Source: a bacterium (GTDB lineage: Bacteria > UBP15 > UBA6099 > DSWB01). Taken from it: a stretch of 19,529 nt of DNA. Made by a program: the position numbers and the translations under genes. This document shows positions 7,195-15,613 of this stretch, piece after piece. The stretch lies in the NCBI GenBank assembly GCA_020061125.1, contig JAGUYV010000203.1, forward strand, positions 1 to 19,529, written 5' to 3'. How positions within the stretch are numbered: position 1 is the stretch's first letter; each line of letters starts with the position of its first letter. The notes beneath the pieces are model-generated. The model was not told the origin of the DNA and ran no database searches. It was given only the letters and a program-made list of their open reading frames with translations.

Positions 7195-10158
7195 ATGAAC
7201 AGGATGATACCGGCGAACCTGCCGGCGCATGTGCTGCTGCAGGCCATGGCCGCGAATTTCAATTTCAGGCCGCGATACAGAAAATATTTGAAAAGCACCA
7301 CGGGCTGGATTGATTTTTCCGTGGGGTTCCGCACGCGCGCCAATACCATCGCCCAGACCATCAGATTCAGAGGCGGGCGGGCCGCAGTTCGCCCCCGGGT
7401 TCTGCGCGACGCGGACGCGGTCATCGTGTTCGAGGACGACGCGGCTTTCCTGGACATGTTGAGCCATTCGTCCGAGGAAGTCATGACCATGATGCTGCGC
7501 AACCGCATCCGCGTGCAGGGCAATCATCTGTGCGTGCTGCTGTTCTACTTTCTGATGTCCCTGATCATCGAGGAACTCGAAGGCAACGGCATTTCCCTCA
7601 ACGGCCGCAAGGCGGCCCGCAACGGCAACAAACCCGGCGATGCGTTTTCCCTGCCGGAGCGGCCGGCCATGCGGCGCAAGGCGGTTCTCACAACCGGCAG
7701 GACCGGACCCGGCGTCAAGTACCTCGAAGACCCCTATCTGTCCGGCTATTCCATCGAAGATTTCCCGCGACTCGGCCGCTTCTTGGCCGCGCATTTCAAC
7801 ACCCTGCCCGAGGTGTGCCCGGAGCGTGCAAAACTGCTCACGGACTGGTACAGCCGGCACGGTTTCGAGAAAAAGCGCAGCGGCGAACCCTGGATCCCCG
7901 AACTGCGACAGGCGCACGCTTTCAAATATCTCATGGAAAACAAACAGCCCATCATCCGCGACGAGGATCTGATCGCAGGAACCACAACCACCATGCCCAT
8001 CGGCGCGGTCATGTATCCTGACTCCCAGGGCATGTTCATCTGGCCCGAGCTGCGCACCATGTCCACCCGCGAGATGAACCCCTGCCGCATTTCCAAGCAC
8101 ACGGCCAAAGTCCTGCACCACCATGTGTTCCCTTTCTGGATGCGGCGCAACATCAAGTTGTGGGTCGGCGAAAAGTACGACAATCCCCTGTGCGAGCAGA
8201 TTGGCGACCACCTCGTTGCGTACATTCTTTCCAAGAGCGTGGCCCTGTCGCACACCATCGCGGATTTCCCCAAGCTCCTGGCGCTCGGCACGCGCGGCAT
8301 CCGCGACGAAATCGAGCGCGAGCTGGCTTCGAATGGCATTGACAAACAGAAACGATATACTCTCGAAGCCATGGAACTCTGTCTTGAAGGCGTGGACGCG
8401 TATGCGCTCAACCTGGCCGCGCATGCGCGCAAGCTCGCGGACCAAGAACTGAACCCCGCGCGCAAGACAGAACTTCAACGCCTTGCGCAAATCTGCGCCC
8501 GGGCGCCCATGAACCCTCCCGAAACACTGGACGAAGCCGTGAACGCCATCTGGATCGGCTGGGTGGCCCTGCACATGGAGAACACCAATGTGGGGCTGTC
8601 CCTGGGCCGCATGGATCAGTGGCTCCAGCCGTTCTTCGATGCGGACATGCGGAAATGCGAAACCCCGGAGCAGCGCGACGAGTGCATCAAGCACGCCATC
8701 CGCCTCGTGAGCTGCTTCTTCCTCCGGTGCACGGATCACATTCCGCTGTCCCCGGATGTTGGCAAGCATGTGGTGGGCGGCGCGCCCGCAAACCAGGCTG
8801 TGACCCTGGGCGGCGTGACCCCGGACGGGCGCGACGCGGTCAACGACATGACCTACATCTTCCTCAAGGTCACGGAAATGCTCGCCATCCGGGATCCCAA
8901 TGTGAACGCGCGCTACCATCCGGGCGTCAACACGGACACTTATCTCAAGCGCCTGTGCGAGGTGAATCTGGTCACCACGGCTTCTCCTTCCATGCACAAC
9001 GACACGGCGGTTATGACTTCTCTCGAGGAATTCGACTATCCCGTGGAGGAAGCGCGCGACTGGTCTTCCACGGGCTGCGTGGAGCCGACAATCTCCGGCA
9101 AGCACATCGGCCACACCGGCTGCATGATGATGAACATGGTGGCCGCGCTTGAAATGGCGCTCAACAACGGCCTGCACCCGCTCATGAACTGGGAGGTCGG
9201 CCCTAAAACCGGGCGCGTGGACAACGGCGCATTCCCGGATTTCGAGGATTTCTTCAACGCCTTCAAAACCCAGTTCGAGTTTCTGATCGCCAACGCGGTG
9301 CAGTACAACAACTATCTGGGCGAGGCGCACAGCGTCATGCGTCCCACGCCCCTGTTGTCCTCCATGATCTCCGACTGCATCGCCAACGGGAAAGATCTCA
9401 CCAAGGGCGGAGCGAGACACAATTCCTCGGGCATCGCGTGCATCGGCCTGGCCGATGTCACGGACTCCATGCTCGCGATCAAGAAGTTTGTGTACGACGA
9501 CAAATTCATCACCTTCGCGGAACTCAAGGACGCGGTGGACTCGAATTTCAAAAAGCACGCCATGCTGCACGCCATGATCATGAACAAGGCGCCCCGTTTC
9601 GGCACGGGCAGCCAGGAAGCGCTGGACATGGCCAACCGCATCACCAAGATCACGCACGATGCGTTTGCGTCGCACCGCAACTTTCGAGGCGGCATCTACA
9701 CCACCGGATTCTGGTCCATGTCCAACCATGTGGCGTTCGGCACACTCACCGGCGCGCTGCCCTCGGGCCGCCTGGCCGGGTCCCCCTTCACCCCGGGCCT
9801 TACGCCACAGGCCTGCTCCACATCCAGTTTGCTCGACAACATCCACGATGTTGCGCGGCTCGACCCGCGCAACATGAACAATAACATCGCGTTCAACATC
9901 AAGGTGGTGCCCGCCGCGGGCGAGTCCCACGAAAAATCCGTGAACGACATTTTCTCATATGTGAAAACCTACTTCGACCTTGGCGGCATGCAGATTCAGC
10001 TCAATGTCGTGAACACCGAAACCCTGCGGGACGCCATGGCCCATCCCGAGAATTACCAGAATCTGCTCGTGCGTATTTCAGGATATAACGCGTACTTCAC
10101 CACACTGACCAAGGAGTTGCAGCTCGAACTCATCCACAGAGCCGAGTTCGGGATATGA
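7195..10158 (+). CDS. Glycyl radical enzyme (PFL-like) with an N-terminal SCP2-type lipid-binding domain
   Basis: A 987-residue protein. Residues about 185-987 are a pyruvate-formate-lyase-like glycyl radical enzyme: the active-site cysteine is C628 in STGCVEP, and the radical glycine is G963 in RISGYNAYF, 25 residues from the C-terminus. The GCVEP motif, with Glu two residues after Cys, matches the eliminase-type group (glycerol and propanediol dehydratases, choline lyase) rather than PFL itself. About 150-190 extra residues precede the core; residues 30-125 resemble an SCP2 sterol-carrier domain (IRFRGGRAAV, ADAVIVFED, then LRNRIRVQGN and a hydrophobic helix). That suggests a hydrophobic or acyl substrate. 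ATG 7195 has GGGGA 4 nt upstream; a TTG at 7192 is less likely. The stop overlaps the activase start (ATGA). The reaction is unknown; dehydration or C-X elimination is a family-based guess. Confidence 0.93.
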   Translation: MNRMIPANLPAHVLLQAMAANFNFRPRYRKYLKSTTGWIDFSVGFRTRANTIAQTIRFRGGRAAVRPRVLRDADAVIVFEDDAAFLDMLSHSSEEVMTMMLRNRIRVQGNHLCVLLFYFLMSLIIEELEGNGISLNGRKAARNGNKPGDAFSLPERPAMRRKAVLTTGRTGPGVKYLEDPYLSGYSIEDFPRLGRFLAAHFNTLPEVCPERAKLLTDWYSRHGFEKKRSGEPWIPELRQAHAFKYLMENKQPIIRDEDLIAGTTTTMPIGAVMYPDSQGMFIWPELRTMSTREMNPCRISKHTAKVLHHHVFPFWMRRNIKLWVGEKYDNPLCEQIGDHLVAYILSKSVALSHTIADFPKLLALGTRGIRDEIERELASNGIDKQKRYTLEAMELCLEGVDAYALNLAAHARKLADQELNPARKTELQRLAQICARAPMNPPETLDEAVNAIWIGWVALHMENTNVGLSLGRMDQWLQPFFDADMRKCETPEQRDECIKHAIRLVSCFFLRCTDHIPLSPDVGKHVVGGAPANQAVTLGGVTPDGRDAVNDMTYIFLKVTEMLAIRDPNVNARYHPGVNTDTYLKRLCEVNLVTTASPSMHNDTAVMTSLEEFDYPVEEARDWSSTGCVEPTISGKHIGHTGCMMMNMVAALEMALNNGLHPLMNWEVGPKTGRVDNGAFPDFEDFFNAFKTQFEFLIANAVQYNNYLGEAHSVMRPTPLLSSMISDCIANGKDLTKGGARHNSSGIACIGLADVTDSMLAIKKFVYDDKFITFAELKDAVDSNFKKHAMLHAMIMNKAPRFGTGSQEALDMANRITKITHDAFASHRNFRGGIYTTGFWSMSNHVAFGTLTGALPSGRLAGSPFTPGLTPQACSTSSLLDNIHDVARLDPRNMNNNIAFNIKVVPAAGESHEKSVNDIFSYVKTYFDLGGMQIQLNVVNTETLRDAMAHPENYQNLLVRISGYNAYFTTLTKELQLELIHRAEFGI

Positions 10159-11063
10159 TCATGTCCGGCGATTCTCTGATATTCGAAATCAAGCGCAATT
10201 CCCTGGACGACGGTCCCGGCATCCGCACGGTGATCTTTTTCAAAGGCTGCCCGCTGTCGTGCCCGTGGTGCCAGAACCCCGAGGGCCGCCGCCCGCGCGT
10301 GGACATCTCCTTCGACCGCAAGAAGTGCATCGGGTGCAAGACCTGCATCAAGGTGTGCAAGAAAAGCGCGCTGGACCGGCATCCGCAGTATTTCATCGAG
10401 CGCGAGAAGTGCGACCTCTGCTTCGAGTGCGCGGACAATTGCCCCACGGGCGCGCTGGCGCGCGTTGGGCGGCACATCCCGGTGCAGGAGATCGTGGACT
10501 CGGTGGTGCGCGACATCCCGTTTTTCAACACATCTGGCGGAGGCGTCACACTTTCCGGCGGTGAGGCCACGCTGTTCATGCCCTATGCTTCAAGCCTGTT
10601 GCAGGCCCTCAAACTTAACGGTGTCAGCACTTTGCTCGAAACCTGCGGGCACTTCGATTTCGACGCGTTCGACGAACTCATGTATCCCTGGCTGGACGCC
10701 ATCTATTACGACCTGAAAATCCTTGACCCTGAATGGCACCGTAAAATCTGCGGCGTGCCCAACGACAGAATTCTCGCGAATTTTGAGCGCCTGCATGCGC
10801 GGGCGCTCAAGGGCGGCGTGCCCGTGCTGCCGCGCATCCCGCTGGTGCCGCGCCTCACGGCCGTGAAGCCGAACCTGCGCGCACTTGCCGCTTACCTCAA
10901 GAAACACCGCGTCAAGAAACTTTCCCTGCTGCCTTACAATCCATTGTGGCAGGATAAGATGATCATGGTCGGCATGCCCAGCGCCTACGAGCAGGCCGGC
11001 TGGATGCCCGAGCGGGACATCAAGCTGTGCCGCTCGTTCTTCAAGCGCTTCGAGCTTGTGTGA
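10155..11063 (+). CDS. Glycyl radical enzyme activase (radical SAM, two auxiliary 4Fe-4S clusters)
   Basis: A 302-residue radical SAM protein of the PflA type. The SAM-cluster motif is C32, C36, C39 (GCPLSCPWCQN). A ferredoxin-like insert follows with eight cysteines (C58, C61, C64, C68 and C86, C89, C92, C96), as in activases of non-PFL glycyl radical enzymes. The segment TSGGGVTLSGGEA contains the SAM-binding GGE motif. It would abstract a hydrogen from G963 of the upstream enzyme, using SAM and reduced ferredoxin or flavodoxin. Its ATG overlaps the upstream stop (ATGA at 10155-10158), so the two are translationally coupled and must be partners. The next gene follows after 50 bp. The length is normal for the two-cluster activases (about 300). 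Confidence 0.95.
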   Translation: MIMSGDSLIFEIKRNSLDDGPGIRTVIFFKGCPLSCPWCQNPEGRRPRVDISFDRKKCIGCKTCIKVCKKSALDRHPQYFIEREKCDLCFECADNCPTGALARVGRHIPVQEIVDSVVRDIPFFNTSGGGVTLSGGEATLFMPYASSLLQALKLNGVSTLLETCGHFDFDAFDELMYPWLDAIYYDLKILDPEWHRKICGVPNDRILANFERLHARALKGGVPVLPRIPLVPRLTAVKPNLRALAAYLKKHRVKKLSLLPYNPLWQDKMIMVGMPSAYEQAGWMPERDIKLCRSFFKRFELV

Positions 11064-11113
11064 GCGCCGCAGGAATTGCCGAAAAGAAAACTGTGAAAGA
11101 AGGATCGCGAATC

Positions 11114-14100
11114 ATGCAAGACAAAACATGGAACTACGAGGAATACTGCCGCCCGGACTTCGTGAAGATGCTCCGCGCTTTGAGGCTCGATGTGAATTTC
11201 ATCAGGGGCCGGGGAGATTATCTGACTTATCTGAACGATAAGGGTGAGGAAGTGGAAGTGCTGGATCTGGCCGGGGGCATGGGTTCGACCCTGCTCGGGC
11301 ACAGCAATCCGGCCGTGAATCAGGCGCTCATAAAATGCCTGCAGGACGGCGTCCCCATGCACACGCAAGGTTCAGTGCGAGAGTCCGCAGGCCTCCTGGC
11401 CGCGCGCCTCAACGAGCTGTATCCGGGCAAGACAAAGCGCGTCTGCATCTTCACCAATACGGGCACCGAGGCCGTGGAAAGCGCGCTCAAGCACGCCGAA
11501 CTGTGCCGCATGAAACGATTCCTGGCCATCGGCAAGGATCTCAAGGCGCACCACAAGCAGATGCGCACCTGGTTCCGCAACAACACCGGCTACACACTGC
11601 CCGAGAAGTACCGCAACACGGGCTTCGACGCGCTTCTCACCGATGTGCTCATGCAGGGCCTGATTCTGGAGCAGCTTCCGCCCGTGGTGATCTCTACGCG
11701 CGGCGCGTTCCACGGCAAAACCACTTCCTCGTTGAGCGTCACGGGCAATAAGATGTACCGCGAGGCCTTCGCGCGCTTGAGCGGCATTCAGACCCGGTTC
11801 ATTGACTTCAACAACGCAAAACAGCTTGAACGCACGCTTGAAGACAACTATTTCGAGATCAATAAAATCACGGTCAAGGACGGCGTGGTCAGCCTTGTCC
11901 CTGAAAAACATCTTAATGTTACGGCGTTCATCATGGAGCCGGTGCAGGGCGAGGGCGGCATTCATGTGGCCACGGCGGATTTCGTTAAAAATGTGGCGGC
12001 TCTGCGCAAGAAGCACGGGTTCCACTGGGTGGTGGACGAGATTCAGACGGGCATGGGCCGCACCGGCTCGTTCTTCGCCTTGGAGCATTACAACATTGAT
12101 CATGACGCCGTGGACTATGTGCTGCTGTCAAAATCCCTGGGCGGCGCTGTGAGCAAGTTGAGCGTTGCCATGATCAGTGAGGAAGTGAGCGACCGAAACT
12201 TCGGTCTGCTGCACACCTCGACATTCGGCGAAGATGCGCTGTCCAGCGAGGCGGCCCTGGCCGCGGTTCGCGAGATCACGGCCAACGGCAATGAGGTGAT
12301 CCGCAAATGCGCGGAGACCGGGGACTACCTCATGAGCCGCCTGCGCGATCTCAAGGAAGCGCATCCGGGCGTGGTCACGGATGTGCGCGGCGTGGGCCTG
12401 CTCGCGGGCGTGGAGTTCAATGTGCGGCGCAACGGCAAGTCCATCCTGTTTGCGGAACTCGCGGCCCAGGGCGGACTGGGCATGCTCATCGCCGGATACC
12501 TGTTCCACGAACACCACATCCGCACCCAGCCGCCGCTGAATTCCATCATCACCAAGAAACCCTCGAACATCTTGCGCATCGAGCCTTCCGCTTTCATCTC
12601 AAAAGAGGACATTGACCGGCTGGCGTTTGCGCTGGATCGCGCCTGCGAGATCGTGGAAAAATCCAACGCCTACGAACTCACAAAGTTTGTCGTTGGAAAG
12701 GAAACGCCGGGCGTGTTCGGCGATATCGAGGACTACTTCGAGCCGGCCGAGCCGAGCATCGAGGCCGCGGATTTCGAGGATGTGCGCCAGATGGGATTCC
12801 AGTTCCACCCCCTCGATGTGCACCAGGTCATGGAGGGGTTCGACGCCTCCCTATGCAAATTCTCCAAGGAGATTGATCCGGAAACCGGGCGCAGCGAGCG
12901 CGACATGTACTGGGATCGGCTGGTGCCCGTGCTGGGCGCTTTCGTGCTCAAGGTCATCAATTTGAAATCCCCGCGCACGGGCGACCGCGTGCGCGCCACA
13001 CTTTTCGGGCTGCCCTACACCACGCGCCAGATGCTGGCCCTGCACAAGAACGATCCGCAGTTCCTCATTGACCGCATTCAGGAGGGCGCGGAGCGCGCCG
13101 CGTCCATGGGCGCACGCCTGTTCGGACTGGGCGCGTTCAACTCTATCGTCACACACGACGGCATGGATCTGGACGACACCAACATCTGCATCACCAGCGG
13201 CAACTCGTACACCGCTGCGCTTATCTGGCAGAGCATTCTGAAAGTGGCGGAATACGCGGAGCTGAATCTCGAAAAAGCAACCGCAGCCATCGTGGGCGCG
13301 GGCGGAAACATCGGCAGCGTCACCGCCAGCCTGCTCTCCGAGGACATTCCGCGCCTCATGCTTCTGGGAAGCAAAAAGGAAAAATCCATCGAGAAACTCC
13401 GCGCCACGGCGTGTTCCATCTATTCGGACACCGTGGATGTGCTGCGCTCCACCAAGCCCAAGGATCTGAAAGGCCTGCCAAAGGCTCTGGCCCAGGATCT
13501 GCTCGTGCCTTTCCTGCCCCTGTACGGCAAGGATTACATCTTCAACGAAGAGGCCATCACGCAGTACATCGAAGCCAATTACAAGGGCAAGGACCTGGAA
13601 GTGGGACGGCTCATCAAAACCATCTTCTTCCCGCGCTCGGCCCCGGACATCGGCGAGAAGGTCTATCTGGCCCTGCAGATCAAGCATGGCAAGGATCCCT
13701 ACATTTCGTTGGACAACGATCTCAAGGCGCGCCTTGGCGAGGCCGACATTGTGGTGTCCGCGGTCAGCTCGGACCGCACCATCATGGAAGCCGACTGGTT
13801 CAAGCCCGGCGCCATCGTGAACGATGTGAGCCTGCCCACCAGCGTGTCGGACAAAATCTACAAAGAGCGCCCGGATGTGATTGCGTTCGAGGGCGGGGTG
13901 GGGCACCTGCCCGAGTACATTGACCTGGGCATTCCCGGCCTGGTGCCGGGCGCGACCCTGGGCTGCGTGGCCGAGACCTTCATGTGCACCATGATGAACA
14001 TGATCGAAAATTACAGTTTCGGTCCCATCACCAAAAAGCAGGTTCTCAAGATCTGGGAGATCGGCAATATGCTCGGCTTCGGCCTTGGCGGCGTCAAGTA

Positions 14101-14170
14101 CATGAGCGACAAAAAGCTCACCCGCAAAATCGCCAAGGAGATTATCGCCAAAGCCAGGGCGAGTTCTTGA
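11114..14170 (+). CDS. Class III PLP aminotransferase fused to an acyl-ACP-reductase (AAR)-like domain
   Basis: A 1018-residue two-part enzyme. Residues about 20-510 are a class III aminotransferase: TNTGTEAVESALK, IMEPVQGEGG, PLP-pairing D308 (VVDEIQTGMGRTG) and Schiff-base K340 (LLSKSLGG). After a linker, residues about 570-1018 resemble cyanobacterial long-chain fatty acyl-ACP reductase: GLGAFNSIV, TSGNSYTAALI, a Rossmann motif GAGGNIG, ADIVVSAVSS, and GCVAE with C951 at the position of the AAR nucleophile (C294 in Synechococcus). AAR reduces acyl-ACP/CoA to a fatty aldehyde with NADPH via a thioester; an attached aminotransferase could convert the aldehyde to an amine, or the reverse. An AGAAGGA site lies 9 nt before ATG 11114; an in-frame ATG at 11027 would overlap the activase and lacks family similarity. 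It is the third gene of the glycyl radical operon. The substrate is unknown. Confidence 0.88.
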   Translation: MQDKTWNYEEYCRPDFVKMLRALRLDVNFIRGRGDYLTYLNDKGEEVEVLDLAGGMGSTLLGHSNPAVNQALIKCLQDGVPMHTQGSVRESAGLLAARLNELYPGKTKRVCIFTNTGTEAVESALKHAELCRMKRFLAIGKDLKAHHKQMRTWFRNNTGYTLPEKYRNTGFDALLTDVLMQGLILEQLPPVVISTRGAFHGKTTSSLSVTGNKMYREAFARLSGIQTRFIDFNNAKQLERTLEDNYFEINKITVKDGVVSLVPEKHLNVTAFIMEPVQGEGGIHVATADFVKNVAALRKKHGFHWVVDEIQTGMGRTGSFFALEHYNIDHDAVDYVLLSKSLGGAVSKLSVAMISEEVSDRNFGLLHTSTFGEDALSSEAALAAVREITANGNEVIRKCAETGDYLMSRLRDLKEAHPGVVTDVRGVGLLAGVEFNVRRNGKSILFAELAAQGGLGMLIAGYLFHEHHIRTQPPLNSIITKKPSNILRIEPSAFISKEDIDRLAFALDRACEIVEKSNAYELTKFVVGKETPGVFGDIEDYFEPAEPSIEAADFEDVRQMGFQFHPLDVHQVMEGFDASLCKFSKEIDPETGRSERDMYWDRLVPVLGAFVLKVINLKSPRTGDRVRATLFGLPYTTRQMLALHKNDPQFLIDRIQEGAERAASMGARLFGLGAFNSIVTHDGMDLDDTNICITSGNSYTAALIWQSILKVAEYAELNLEKATAAIVGAGGNIGSVTASLLSEDIPRLMLLGSKKEKSIEKLRATACSIYSDTVDVLRSTKPKDLKGLPKALAQDLLVPFLPLYGKDYIFNEEAITQYIEANYKGKDLEVGRLIKTIFFPRSAPDIGEKVYLALQIKHGKDPYISLDNDLKARLGEADIVVSAVSSDRTIMEADWFKPGAIVNDVSLPTSVSDKIYKERPDVIAFEGGVGHLPEYIDLGIPGLVPGATLGCVAETFMCTMMNMIENYSFGPITKKQVLKIWEIGNMLGFGLGGVKYMSDKKLTRKIAKEIIAKARASS

Positions 14171-14323: not shown

Positions 14324-15613
14324 TCAGGTTTTCTTTTCCTTGTGTTTAACTGCGGGAAAGAGGACATTGTTGAGGATGAGCCGGTAGCCCGGAGAGTTCT
14401 TGTGCAATTCCATTTTCGTGGGGCGCTCTCCCACCATGTGCGCGAAGTCCTCGGGGTCGTGCCCGCCCAGGAATGTGAAGCTGCCCGCGCCGCGGTTGCC
14501 GTGAACATATTTGACGCGGTCCGTGCCGGGCGTGTCGCCAAGCACCGCCACATCGTCCCGGATCAGGTCCCTGTGAAACGCCGTGGTCTGGCCCAGGAAG
14601 TCGTGCACGCTTGAGCGGTGGTTCTGAACGAAGATGGTGAGCACGGGGTCCTGCTTGGCGCTGAACTCGAACAGCTCGAAGTCCGGCACCAGCAGCGGGT
14701 TGCTCACATTGGGCGGCGTGATGTCTATGTCGGATATCTCGTAAATCAGTGCGTCCTTGACCAGAATGAAATCCGTGAACGCGAACGATTCATCGTATTG
14801 GAGCTTTTCGTCAACGCCGCGCGTGATGGGCGTACCGTCAATTTCCGGTGGCACGATATCAATGTCCTTAGCGGCGAGAGCCACATCCAGGCTGTCGGGC
14901 GCGGAGCACATGGAGAACAGAAAACCACCGGACTCGACATACGCGCGGATTCCGACAGCCACGGCGCGTTTGAGTTTCTGCACCGTGGGGAAACCCAGGT
15001 CGCGGGCCATGCTCTCCGCGCGCTGTACGCTTTGCATGTACCAGTCGGCGTTGCGGAACGATGCGTAGAACTTTCCGTACTGGCCGGTGAAATCCTCGTG
15101 ATGCAGATGCAGCCAGTCGTATTTTGTCAAATCCCCGGCCAGGACTTCGCGGTCGTAAACGGTGTCGTAAGGGATTTTGGAATAATCCAGGGCCAGGCGC
15201 ACAGCGTCGTCCCACGGTTCGTTTCCGGGGGTCACATAAACCGCCACCTTGGGCGCCTTTTCGAGGAGCACGACCTCGGCATTCATGCCCTGTATTTCGT
15301 GGTAGATGCGGTTGGCCGCGGATGCGTCAATGACCTTGTAGGACACGCCCATGAGCGTGGCGCGGTCCCGGATGTCCTGCGCGTCCGGGGCCATGAACGA
15401 GCCTCCGCGGTAATTCAGCAGCCACTGCACTTTGTATCCTCGCGGCGGCTCCAGGCCCCAATAGGCCACGCCGTATGCGCGCAGATGGTCGGTCTGCTGT
15501 TCGTCCATGGGCATGAGAATCATCGGCCCGTCCGCGCTCCATGTTTCTGCGCGCGCGCATGCACAGACAGCAATCAGAAACAGCATGAAAATGAATCCGG
15601 CGGCGCGGTTCAT
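14324..15613 (-). CDS. Secreted protein of the family commonly labelled 'asparagine synthetase B' (function unknown)
   Basis: A 429-residue protein with a signal peptide: hydrophobic segment about residues 6-18, then CARA before ETWS, consistent with signal peptidase I cleavage near residue 22. The body matches a family found mainly in Bacteroidetes, with HLRAYGVAYWGLE, LLNYRGGSF, YDWLHLHHEDFTGQYGKFYA, GGFLFSMCSAPDSLDVAL, GGHDPEDFAH and a C-terminal SPGYRLILNNVLFPA. That family is often annotated asparagine synthetase B, but I see no N-terminal nucleophile cysteine and no SGGxDS ATP-pyrophosphatase loop, and a secreted synthetase without ATP makes little sense. The GGFLFSMCSA segment vaguely recalls a class I glutamine-amidotransferase-like fold. 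It faces the glycyl radical operon tail to tail and has no operon partner. A TATAAT box ends 9 bp before the ATG and there is no Shine-Dalgarno. Confidence 0.8.
   Translation of the reverse strand: MNRAAGFIFMLFLIAVCACARAETWSADGPMILMPMDEQQTDHLRAYGVAYWGLEPPRGYKVQWLLNYRGGSFMAPDAQDIRDRATLMGVSYKVIDASAANRIYHEIQGMNAEVVLLEKAPKVAVYVTPGNEPWDDAVRLALDYSKIPYDTVYDREVLAGDLTKYDWLHLHHEDFTGQYGKFYASFRNADWYMQSVQRAESMARDLGFPTVQKLKRAVAVGIRAYVESGGFLFSMCSAPDSLDVALAAKDIDIVPPEIDGTPITRGVDEKLQYDESFAFTDFILVKDALIYEISDIDITPPNVSNPLLVPDFELFEFSAKQDPVLTIFVQNHRSSVHDFLGQTTAFHRDLIRDDVAVLGDTPGTDRVKYVHGNRGAGSFTFLGGHDPEDFAHMVGERPTKMELHKNSPGYRLILNNVLFPAVKHKEKKT

Follow-up and report, generated by a model that had tools for sequence, protein, structure and literature searches.

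What chemistry would a bacterium carry out with an operon in which a glycyl radical enzyme (GRE) and its activase are followed by an aminotransferase fused to an acyl-thioester reductase? The question is raised by a stretch of 19,529 nucleotides (hereafter the window; assembly GCA_020061125.1, contig JAGUYV010000203.1, C387 in our numbering) from a UBP15 bacterium whose genome assembly is 4.1 Mb and 79% complete. Our tentative answer, held at somewhat less than an even chance, is that a GRE carrying a domain of the sterol carrier protein 2 (SCP2) type would free a long-chain carbonyl compound from an amphiphilic lipid, and that a UBP15 variant of this enzyme has become coupled to fatty-amine formation through the fusion.

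The three genes are co-directional and form one operon at 7195-14170 (+):

7195..10158 (+), SCP2-domain GRE, 987 amino acids; PF02901 (E 9e-166) and PF01228 (E 1e-24)
10155..11063 (+), GRE-activating radical S-adenosylmethionine (SAM) enzyme, 302 amino acids; TIGR02494, Radical_SAM and Fer4
11114..14170 (+), TamH-type fusion, 1018 amino acids; class III aminotransferase (N-terminal) and acyl-thioester reductase (C-terminal)

The activase start overlaps the GRE stop by ATGA, and the fusion gene begins 50 bp after the activase. A GTG at 11027 was dropped as the fusion start for the ATG at 11114, based on the AGAAGGA Shine-Dalgarno sequence just upstream and on the alignment. The activase scored 276 bits against TIGR02494 (cut-off 174) and contains radical SAM and 4Fe-4S domains. 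An earlier sequence-only reading had proposed a GRE, an overlapping activase and a fusion of an aminotransferase with an acyl-acyl carrier protein (ACP) reductase (AAR) in a single operon. The domain matches, the overlap and the conservation of gene order in a second genome (G001) of our seven-genome UBP15 sample (G000, that of the window, to G006) bore this out, and the identities of the three proteins are firm.

The GRE comprises a PFL-like domain (residues 203-849, E 9e-166) and a Gly_radical domain (residues 866-969, E 1e-24). Its residues were mapped through a HMMER alignment to glycerol dehydratase, and their invariance was scored in 56 sequences:

8251..8253 (+), His353, beta1 substrate site; equivalent to glycerol dehydratase His164, HypD His160 and CutC Asp216; invariant in 56/56
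9076..9084 (+), Cys628-Val-Glu630, CxE motif (thiyl radical Cys, base Glu); equivalent to glycerol dehydratase C433/E435; invariant in 56/56
10081..10083 (+), Gly963, glycyl radical residue (RISGYNAYF); equivalent to glycerol dehydratase G763; invariant in 56/56

With the radical glycine, the PFL-like barrel, the thiyl cysteine and a cognate activase all predicted, the protein is assigned to the GRE superfamily. The CxE motif is a feature common to GRE eliminases, in which its glutamate bonds the substrate hydroxyl (PMC8473560), and the roles of the beta1-site residue have been described (PMC8473560, PMC7077986; HypD His160 in PMC7077986). As judged from these aligned residues, the window GRE carries the eliminase-class signature, and on this point we are firm. 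Like glycerol and diol dehydratase, HypD, CutC and IslA, it combines CxE with a glycyl radical domain and an activase, and it shares the beta1-site histidine with glycerol dehydratase and HypD; it differs from the known eliminases in its SCP2-type extension, in other substrate-site residues and in scores far under the family cut-offs. The best NCBIfam score was 541 bits against TIGR01774 (cut-off 678), followed by HypD (436, cut-off 1100) and CutC (402, cut-off 1050), and none of the NCBIfam models of HypD, CutC, sulfopropanediol lyases, PFL, HPAD and IAD was passed at cut-off. H281, S282, Y339 and D447, substrate contacts in the glycerol dehydratase structure, align with V466, G467, N533 and G642, and the window GRE therefore appears to lack this contact set.

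These replacements bear on the possibility of a small polar substrate for the GRE, with the SCP2 domain serving as an oligomerisation or membrane-docking module. The nearest solved GREs (Archaeoglobus PFL2, diol dehydratase, CutC and glycerol dehydratase) speak for such a substrate, but the polar positioning residues are replaced at all four sites and no matching GRE family model reaches its cut-off, and we consider this explanation very unlikely. The clustering with a characterised enzyme of a small polar substrate against which the sequence-only reading had set its proposal was likewise not seen, as no characterised small-molecule GRE family model accepts the protein.

The N-terminal extension reaches about 190 amino acids beyond other eliminases and contains one further feature:

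7216..7584 (+), SCP2-like domain (sterol carrier protein 2/alkylsulfatase C-terminal type), residues about 8-130; AlphaFold and Foldseek

A Pfam search of residues 1-202 gave no match at E 0.1, SCP2 models included, and a profile search of the PDB with the GRE N-terminus was marginal (E 0.44), all three matches being SCP2. An AlphaFold model of residues 1-197 (pLDDT 77) gave 35 Foldseek matches with E < 0.001, every one an SCP2 chain or an alkylsulfatase SCP2-type domain. The best was UbiJ-SCP2 (E 4e-6, probability 1.00), and the probability was also 1.00 for AF1534, the SdsA1 and Pisa1 SCP2 domains and human SCP2. On the predicted structure the SCP2 fold is firm, and the SCP2-like domain suspected from the letters alone proved right. 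As a putative lipid binder, the domain would present an amphiphilic lipid to the radical enzyme. The alkylsulfatases SdsA1 and Pisa1, which work on long-chain alkyl substrates, likewise bear an appended SCP2-like domain; they differ from the GRE in having a hydrolase core, a C-terminal position of the domain and no radical chemistry.

The fusion has its class III aminotransferase at residues 30-475 (PF00202, E 5e-64), and its C-terminal half matched PigE (E 1e-17) and the cyanobacterial acyl-ACP reductase (E 2e-4) in the PDB. Three sites were located, the pyridoxal phosphate (PLP) lysine among them:

12131..12133 (+), Lys340, predicted PLP lysine; the putative catalytic lysine of PtTamH is also K340 (PMC9594044)
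13295..13315 (+), GAGGNIG dinucleotide-binding motif, reductase residues 728-734; columns 728, 729 and 731-734 invariant and 730 G/A in alignment A1
13964..13966 (+), Cys951, predicted acyl-accepting cysteine; equivalent to AAR Cys294, PtTamH Cys887 and PigE Cys296; invariant in alignment A1

The role of the acyl-accepting cysteine has been described (PMC9594044, PMC8341465). The structural model of the reductase domain is of low confidence (pLDDT 62), and its best Foldseek matches, carmabin TAD and AAR, are supporting only. Domain order, the PLP lysine, the nucleotide motif and the acyl cysteine identify the fusion as a predicted TamH-type transaminase-thioester reductase. PtTamH, from tambjamine YP1 biosynthesis, reduces C12-ACP with NADH and then transaminates the aldehyde with L-glutamate to give the C12 amine (PMC9594044). 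It resembles the fusion in having the aminotransferase ahead of an AAR-type reductase, the PLP lysine at 340, the nucleotide motif and the acyl cysteine (941 versus 1018 amino acids). The settings differ: the window lacks both a tambjamine cluster and a TamA-type adenylation-ACP protein, and the fusion is accompanied by a GRE. PigE of prodigiosin biosynthesis has the same two domains and catalytic cysteine in reverse order (PMC8341465); the fusion scored 345 bits against the PigE NCBIfam cut-off of 850, and no bipyrrole gene, adenylation-ACP protein or PigD partner was found by Pfam and NCBIfam among the window genes. The hydrophobic aminated product proposed from the sequence is plausible given what PtTamH makes, whereas the accompanying remark that no characterised system with the set is known does not hold for the fusion, which PtTamH matches in the same domain order and PigE in the reverse.

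Distant fusions encoded on plasmids lie near acyl-carrier functions: one in Photobacterium is in a cluster with ACP and ketosynthase/FabG-like proteins, and one in Paraburkholderia has an N-terminal ACP domain and is followed by an AMP ligase. This context would agree with acyl-ACP as the substrate class of the fusion. Both loci are likely uncharacterised fatty-amine clusters in their own right (Photobacterium pDA100, L137:2922-10862; the ACP-aminotransferase(-reductase) protein of Paraburkholderia phymatum, L141:9728-12592). Separately, on three Rhodobacterales plasmids (L138:4508-5242; L139:8394-9110 and 12778-14124; L140:12419-13111) a TamH-type fusion adjoins a VPLPA-CTERM protein gene, a pairing found once also near the exosortase gene xrtD. 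One could speculate that a fatty amine serves there as a nucleophile joined by the exosortase to its substrates. Such a link was ruled out for the window fusion, as the seven UBP15 genomes contain no exosortase.

How far does the enzyme extend beyond this lineage? Across 85,000 genomes, stretches bearing two GRE-family motifs yielded 168 relatives. We retrieved the 80 best and called genes with a model trained on each locus separately; these 80 span Desulfobacterota, Myxococcota, Spirochaetota, Actinomycetota, Chloroflexota, Bacillota and Pseudomonadota, and their N-terminal domain is conserved. An activase lies within three genes of the GRE at 64/80 loci and a TetR regulator nearby at 41. Genes for short-chain dehydrogenases/reductases (SDRs), both extended 3-beta-hydroxysteroid dehydrogenase-like and classical and sometimes fused, occur at 24 loci and aldehyde:ferredoxin oxidoreductase (AOR) at 11, the two never together (0/80). 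The order is activase-GRE-AOR-MoaD-ferredoxin at a Clostridiales locus, activase-GRE-ferredoxin-AOR-MoaD in Tepidimicrobium and TetR-activase-GRE-SDR in Desulfatibacillum alkenivorans. The AOR and SDR neighbours may point to a common carbonyl product. In one class surveyed, the family was present in 31 of 147 genomes with up to four copies each, the paralogs differing at active-site strand beta3 and keeping CxE, and among 291 sampled genomes of the Tepidimicrobium class it was found at a strict threshold in the query genome only. This distribution is firm. No characterised member, no report of an SCP2-domain GRE and no relevant work joining a GRE with ether lipids or an AAR was found in the open-access literature, most subscription journals lying outside that scope, and the widespread family is apparently unstudied.

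Several family loci showed features of their own. Paired paralogs in Desulfobacterota (L178:5366-12224, L179:5624-11552) differ in part at the active-site strand, as GGSQSQT or GGSQSET versus GGSSSDQ, and as CVEIT versus CVEPT at the Cys loop. At L177:5997-10581 the SCP2-GRE gene is split by a transposase-like gene, with an AOR-like gene and an activase close by. At L057, L101, L104 and L092 (Actinomycetota and one Desulfosudis) a class III aminotransferase-like gene, unrelated to the fusion in domain layout, and a conserved gene of about 310-320 amino acids lie near the GRE.

The same neighbourhoods could fit a catabolic role, in which the GRE attacks an ether lipid, a monoglyceride-like lipid or a long-chain diol as food and the resulting acid enters beta-oxidation. 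The fusion would then run from an amine through the aldehyde to the acyl thioester, or its reductase domain alone would act as an acylating aldehyde dehydrogenase. This role is favoured by relatives in Desulfobacterota and Syntrophaceae, where a genome can have as many as four paralogs, by neighbouring genes for AOR and for proteins resembling acyl-CoA ligase, enoyl-CoA hydratase and acyl-CoA dehydrogenase (the last two named from N-terminal sequence only), and by one Chloroflexi locus with an alpha/beta hydrolase and a downstream glycerol kinase-like gene. D. alkenivorans, which has the operon described above, is moreover rich in alkyl ether lipids (PMC11150832). Its ether-lipid biosynthesis is, however, accounted for by Ger, and those TamH and PigE fusions that we found described run in the reductive, amine-forming direction. 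We know of no evidence that an SCP2-GRE acts on ether lipids. PF09989, which we take to be a domain of Ger/PlsA-type proteins, is present in 134 of the 147 surveyed genomes, and its co-occurrence with the SCP2-GRE is uninformative. On balance we regard the catabolic role as unlikely, but as deserving real weight.

Within UBP15, the extended SCP2-GRE was found in all seven genomes, the other six copies being 58-80% identical to that of the window. The three-gene operon was found in the window and G001 only, in the same order and with 80, 78 and 83% identity for GRE, activase and fusion, respectively. With order and identity kept, the window arrangement is not due to chance, and its presence in two genomes is firm. 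The linked fusions are 82% alike and share 51-58% with unlinked ones, which are 59-70% alike among themselves except for one 99% pair. Among 50 genomes reached through the window GRE, 48 had no fusion at E < 1e-100; the other two were G001 itself and one non-UBP15 genome (37% identity, partial coverage). Neighbourhood in other genomes, which the sequence-only reading had made its test, thus holds for GRE and activase (64/80 loci) and mostly not for the fusion, and a general three-gene pathway is not supported.

We also compared the window and G001 GREs with the other 54 sequences at columns at least 90% conserved elsewhere, in the GRE part only. The two depart at 30 such columns, 15 of which fall in two blocks (322-346 and 524-536) around known active-site strands. 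Five of 14 mapped substrate or catalytic sites are struck, against 1.3 expected (P 0.005, phylogeny uncorrected and some sites hand-mapped from printed motifs), and none of 14 other clades checked shows such a pattern. The pair also has the longest stem inside the family (0.49, quick tree). Taken together, stem and departures make the fusion-linked GRE look like a retooled active-site variant of the SCP2-GRE family, as would be expected if its substrate had changed along with the fusion partner.

These data also bear on whether the operon merely places unrelated functions on one transcript, the GRE performing its family reaction and the fusion making a fatty amine that serves some other end. 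In no other UBP15 genome are the two genes linked, and both G000 and G001 have a second fusion paralog away from the operon. Yet gene order, strand and tight spacing have been retained across two families of the order, an altered active site is seen in the linked GREs and in no other examined clade, and the linked fusions form their own group. We judge such a pairing of unrelated functions improbable.

Returning to the reading we favour, the operon would make or use a long-chain carbonyl compound anaerobically. The SCP2 domain would hand over an amphiphilic lipid with a hydroxyl beside a leaving group, for which a long-chain diol, an alkyl- or acyl-glycerol or an amino-alcohol are guessed types. 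The Cys628 thiyl radical would take the hydrogen adjacent to the hydroxyl, the proton would be handled by Glu630 and His353, and the neighbouring group would leave to give a long-chain aldehyde or ketone. In relatives this carbonyl may be taken by the neighbouring AOR or SDR; in the window lineage it would be taken by the aminotransferase of the fusion to form a long-chain amine, and the reductase domain could supply the same aldehyde pool from acyl-ACP.

Several points weigh against this scheme. The coupling of GRE and fusion rests on one conserved adjacency in two genomes. The five UBP15 genomes of family f3 keep the GRE with neither an adjacent activase nor an adjacent fusion; a fusion lies elsewhere in G002, G005 and G006, and no copy was found in G003 or G004. 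Neither AOR nor SDR is nearby at over half of the 80 loci, and the loci with AOR are concentrated in one region of the tree, implying few independent events. The departure P value lacks correction for phylogeny, and distinct active-site signatures occur in other SCP2-GRE paralogs as well. Which group leaves, and how long the chain is, are guesses.

The fusion and the GRE eliminases are of known kinds, and the SCP2-domain GRE is a variant for which we found no characterised member. The substrates of most characterised GREs are small or are free hydrocarbons. It is possible, if short of probable, that SCP2-GREs are a widespread family dedicated to long-chain lipids (alkylglycerols, diols, amino-alcohol lipids) and retooled in UBP15 toward a fatty amine. 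If so, they would open a way for a radical eliminase to cleave lipid headgroups or ether bonds anaerobically, and the fused lipid carrier suggests that membrane-type or dietary lipids undergo radical chemistry in the absence of oxygen. SCP2-GREs are spread widely among sulfate reducers, syntrophs, spirochaetes and rumen Clostridia, and Desulfobacterota carry multiple copies whose active sites vary. This makes the family a concrete candidate for anaerobic lipid breakdown that so far lacks an explanation. The idea can be tested directly, since D. alkenivorans DSM 16219, which has an SCP2-GRE, is cultured and sequenced.

Directly downstream of the operon and convergent with it, the window encodes a secreted-looking protein of 429 amino acids (14324-15613, minus strand) that matched no Pfam or NCBIfam model.

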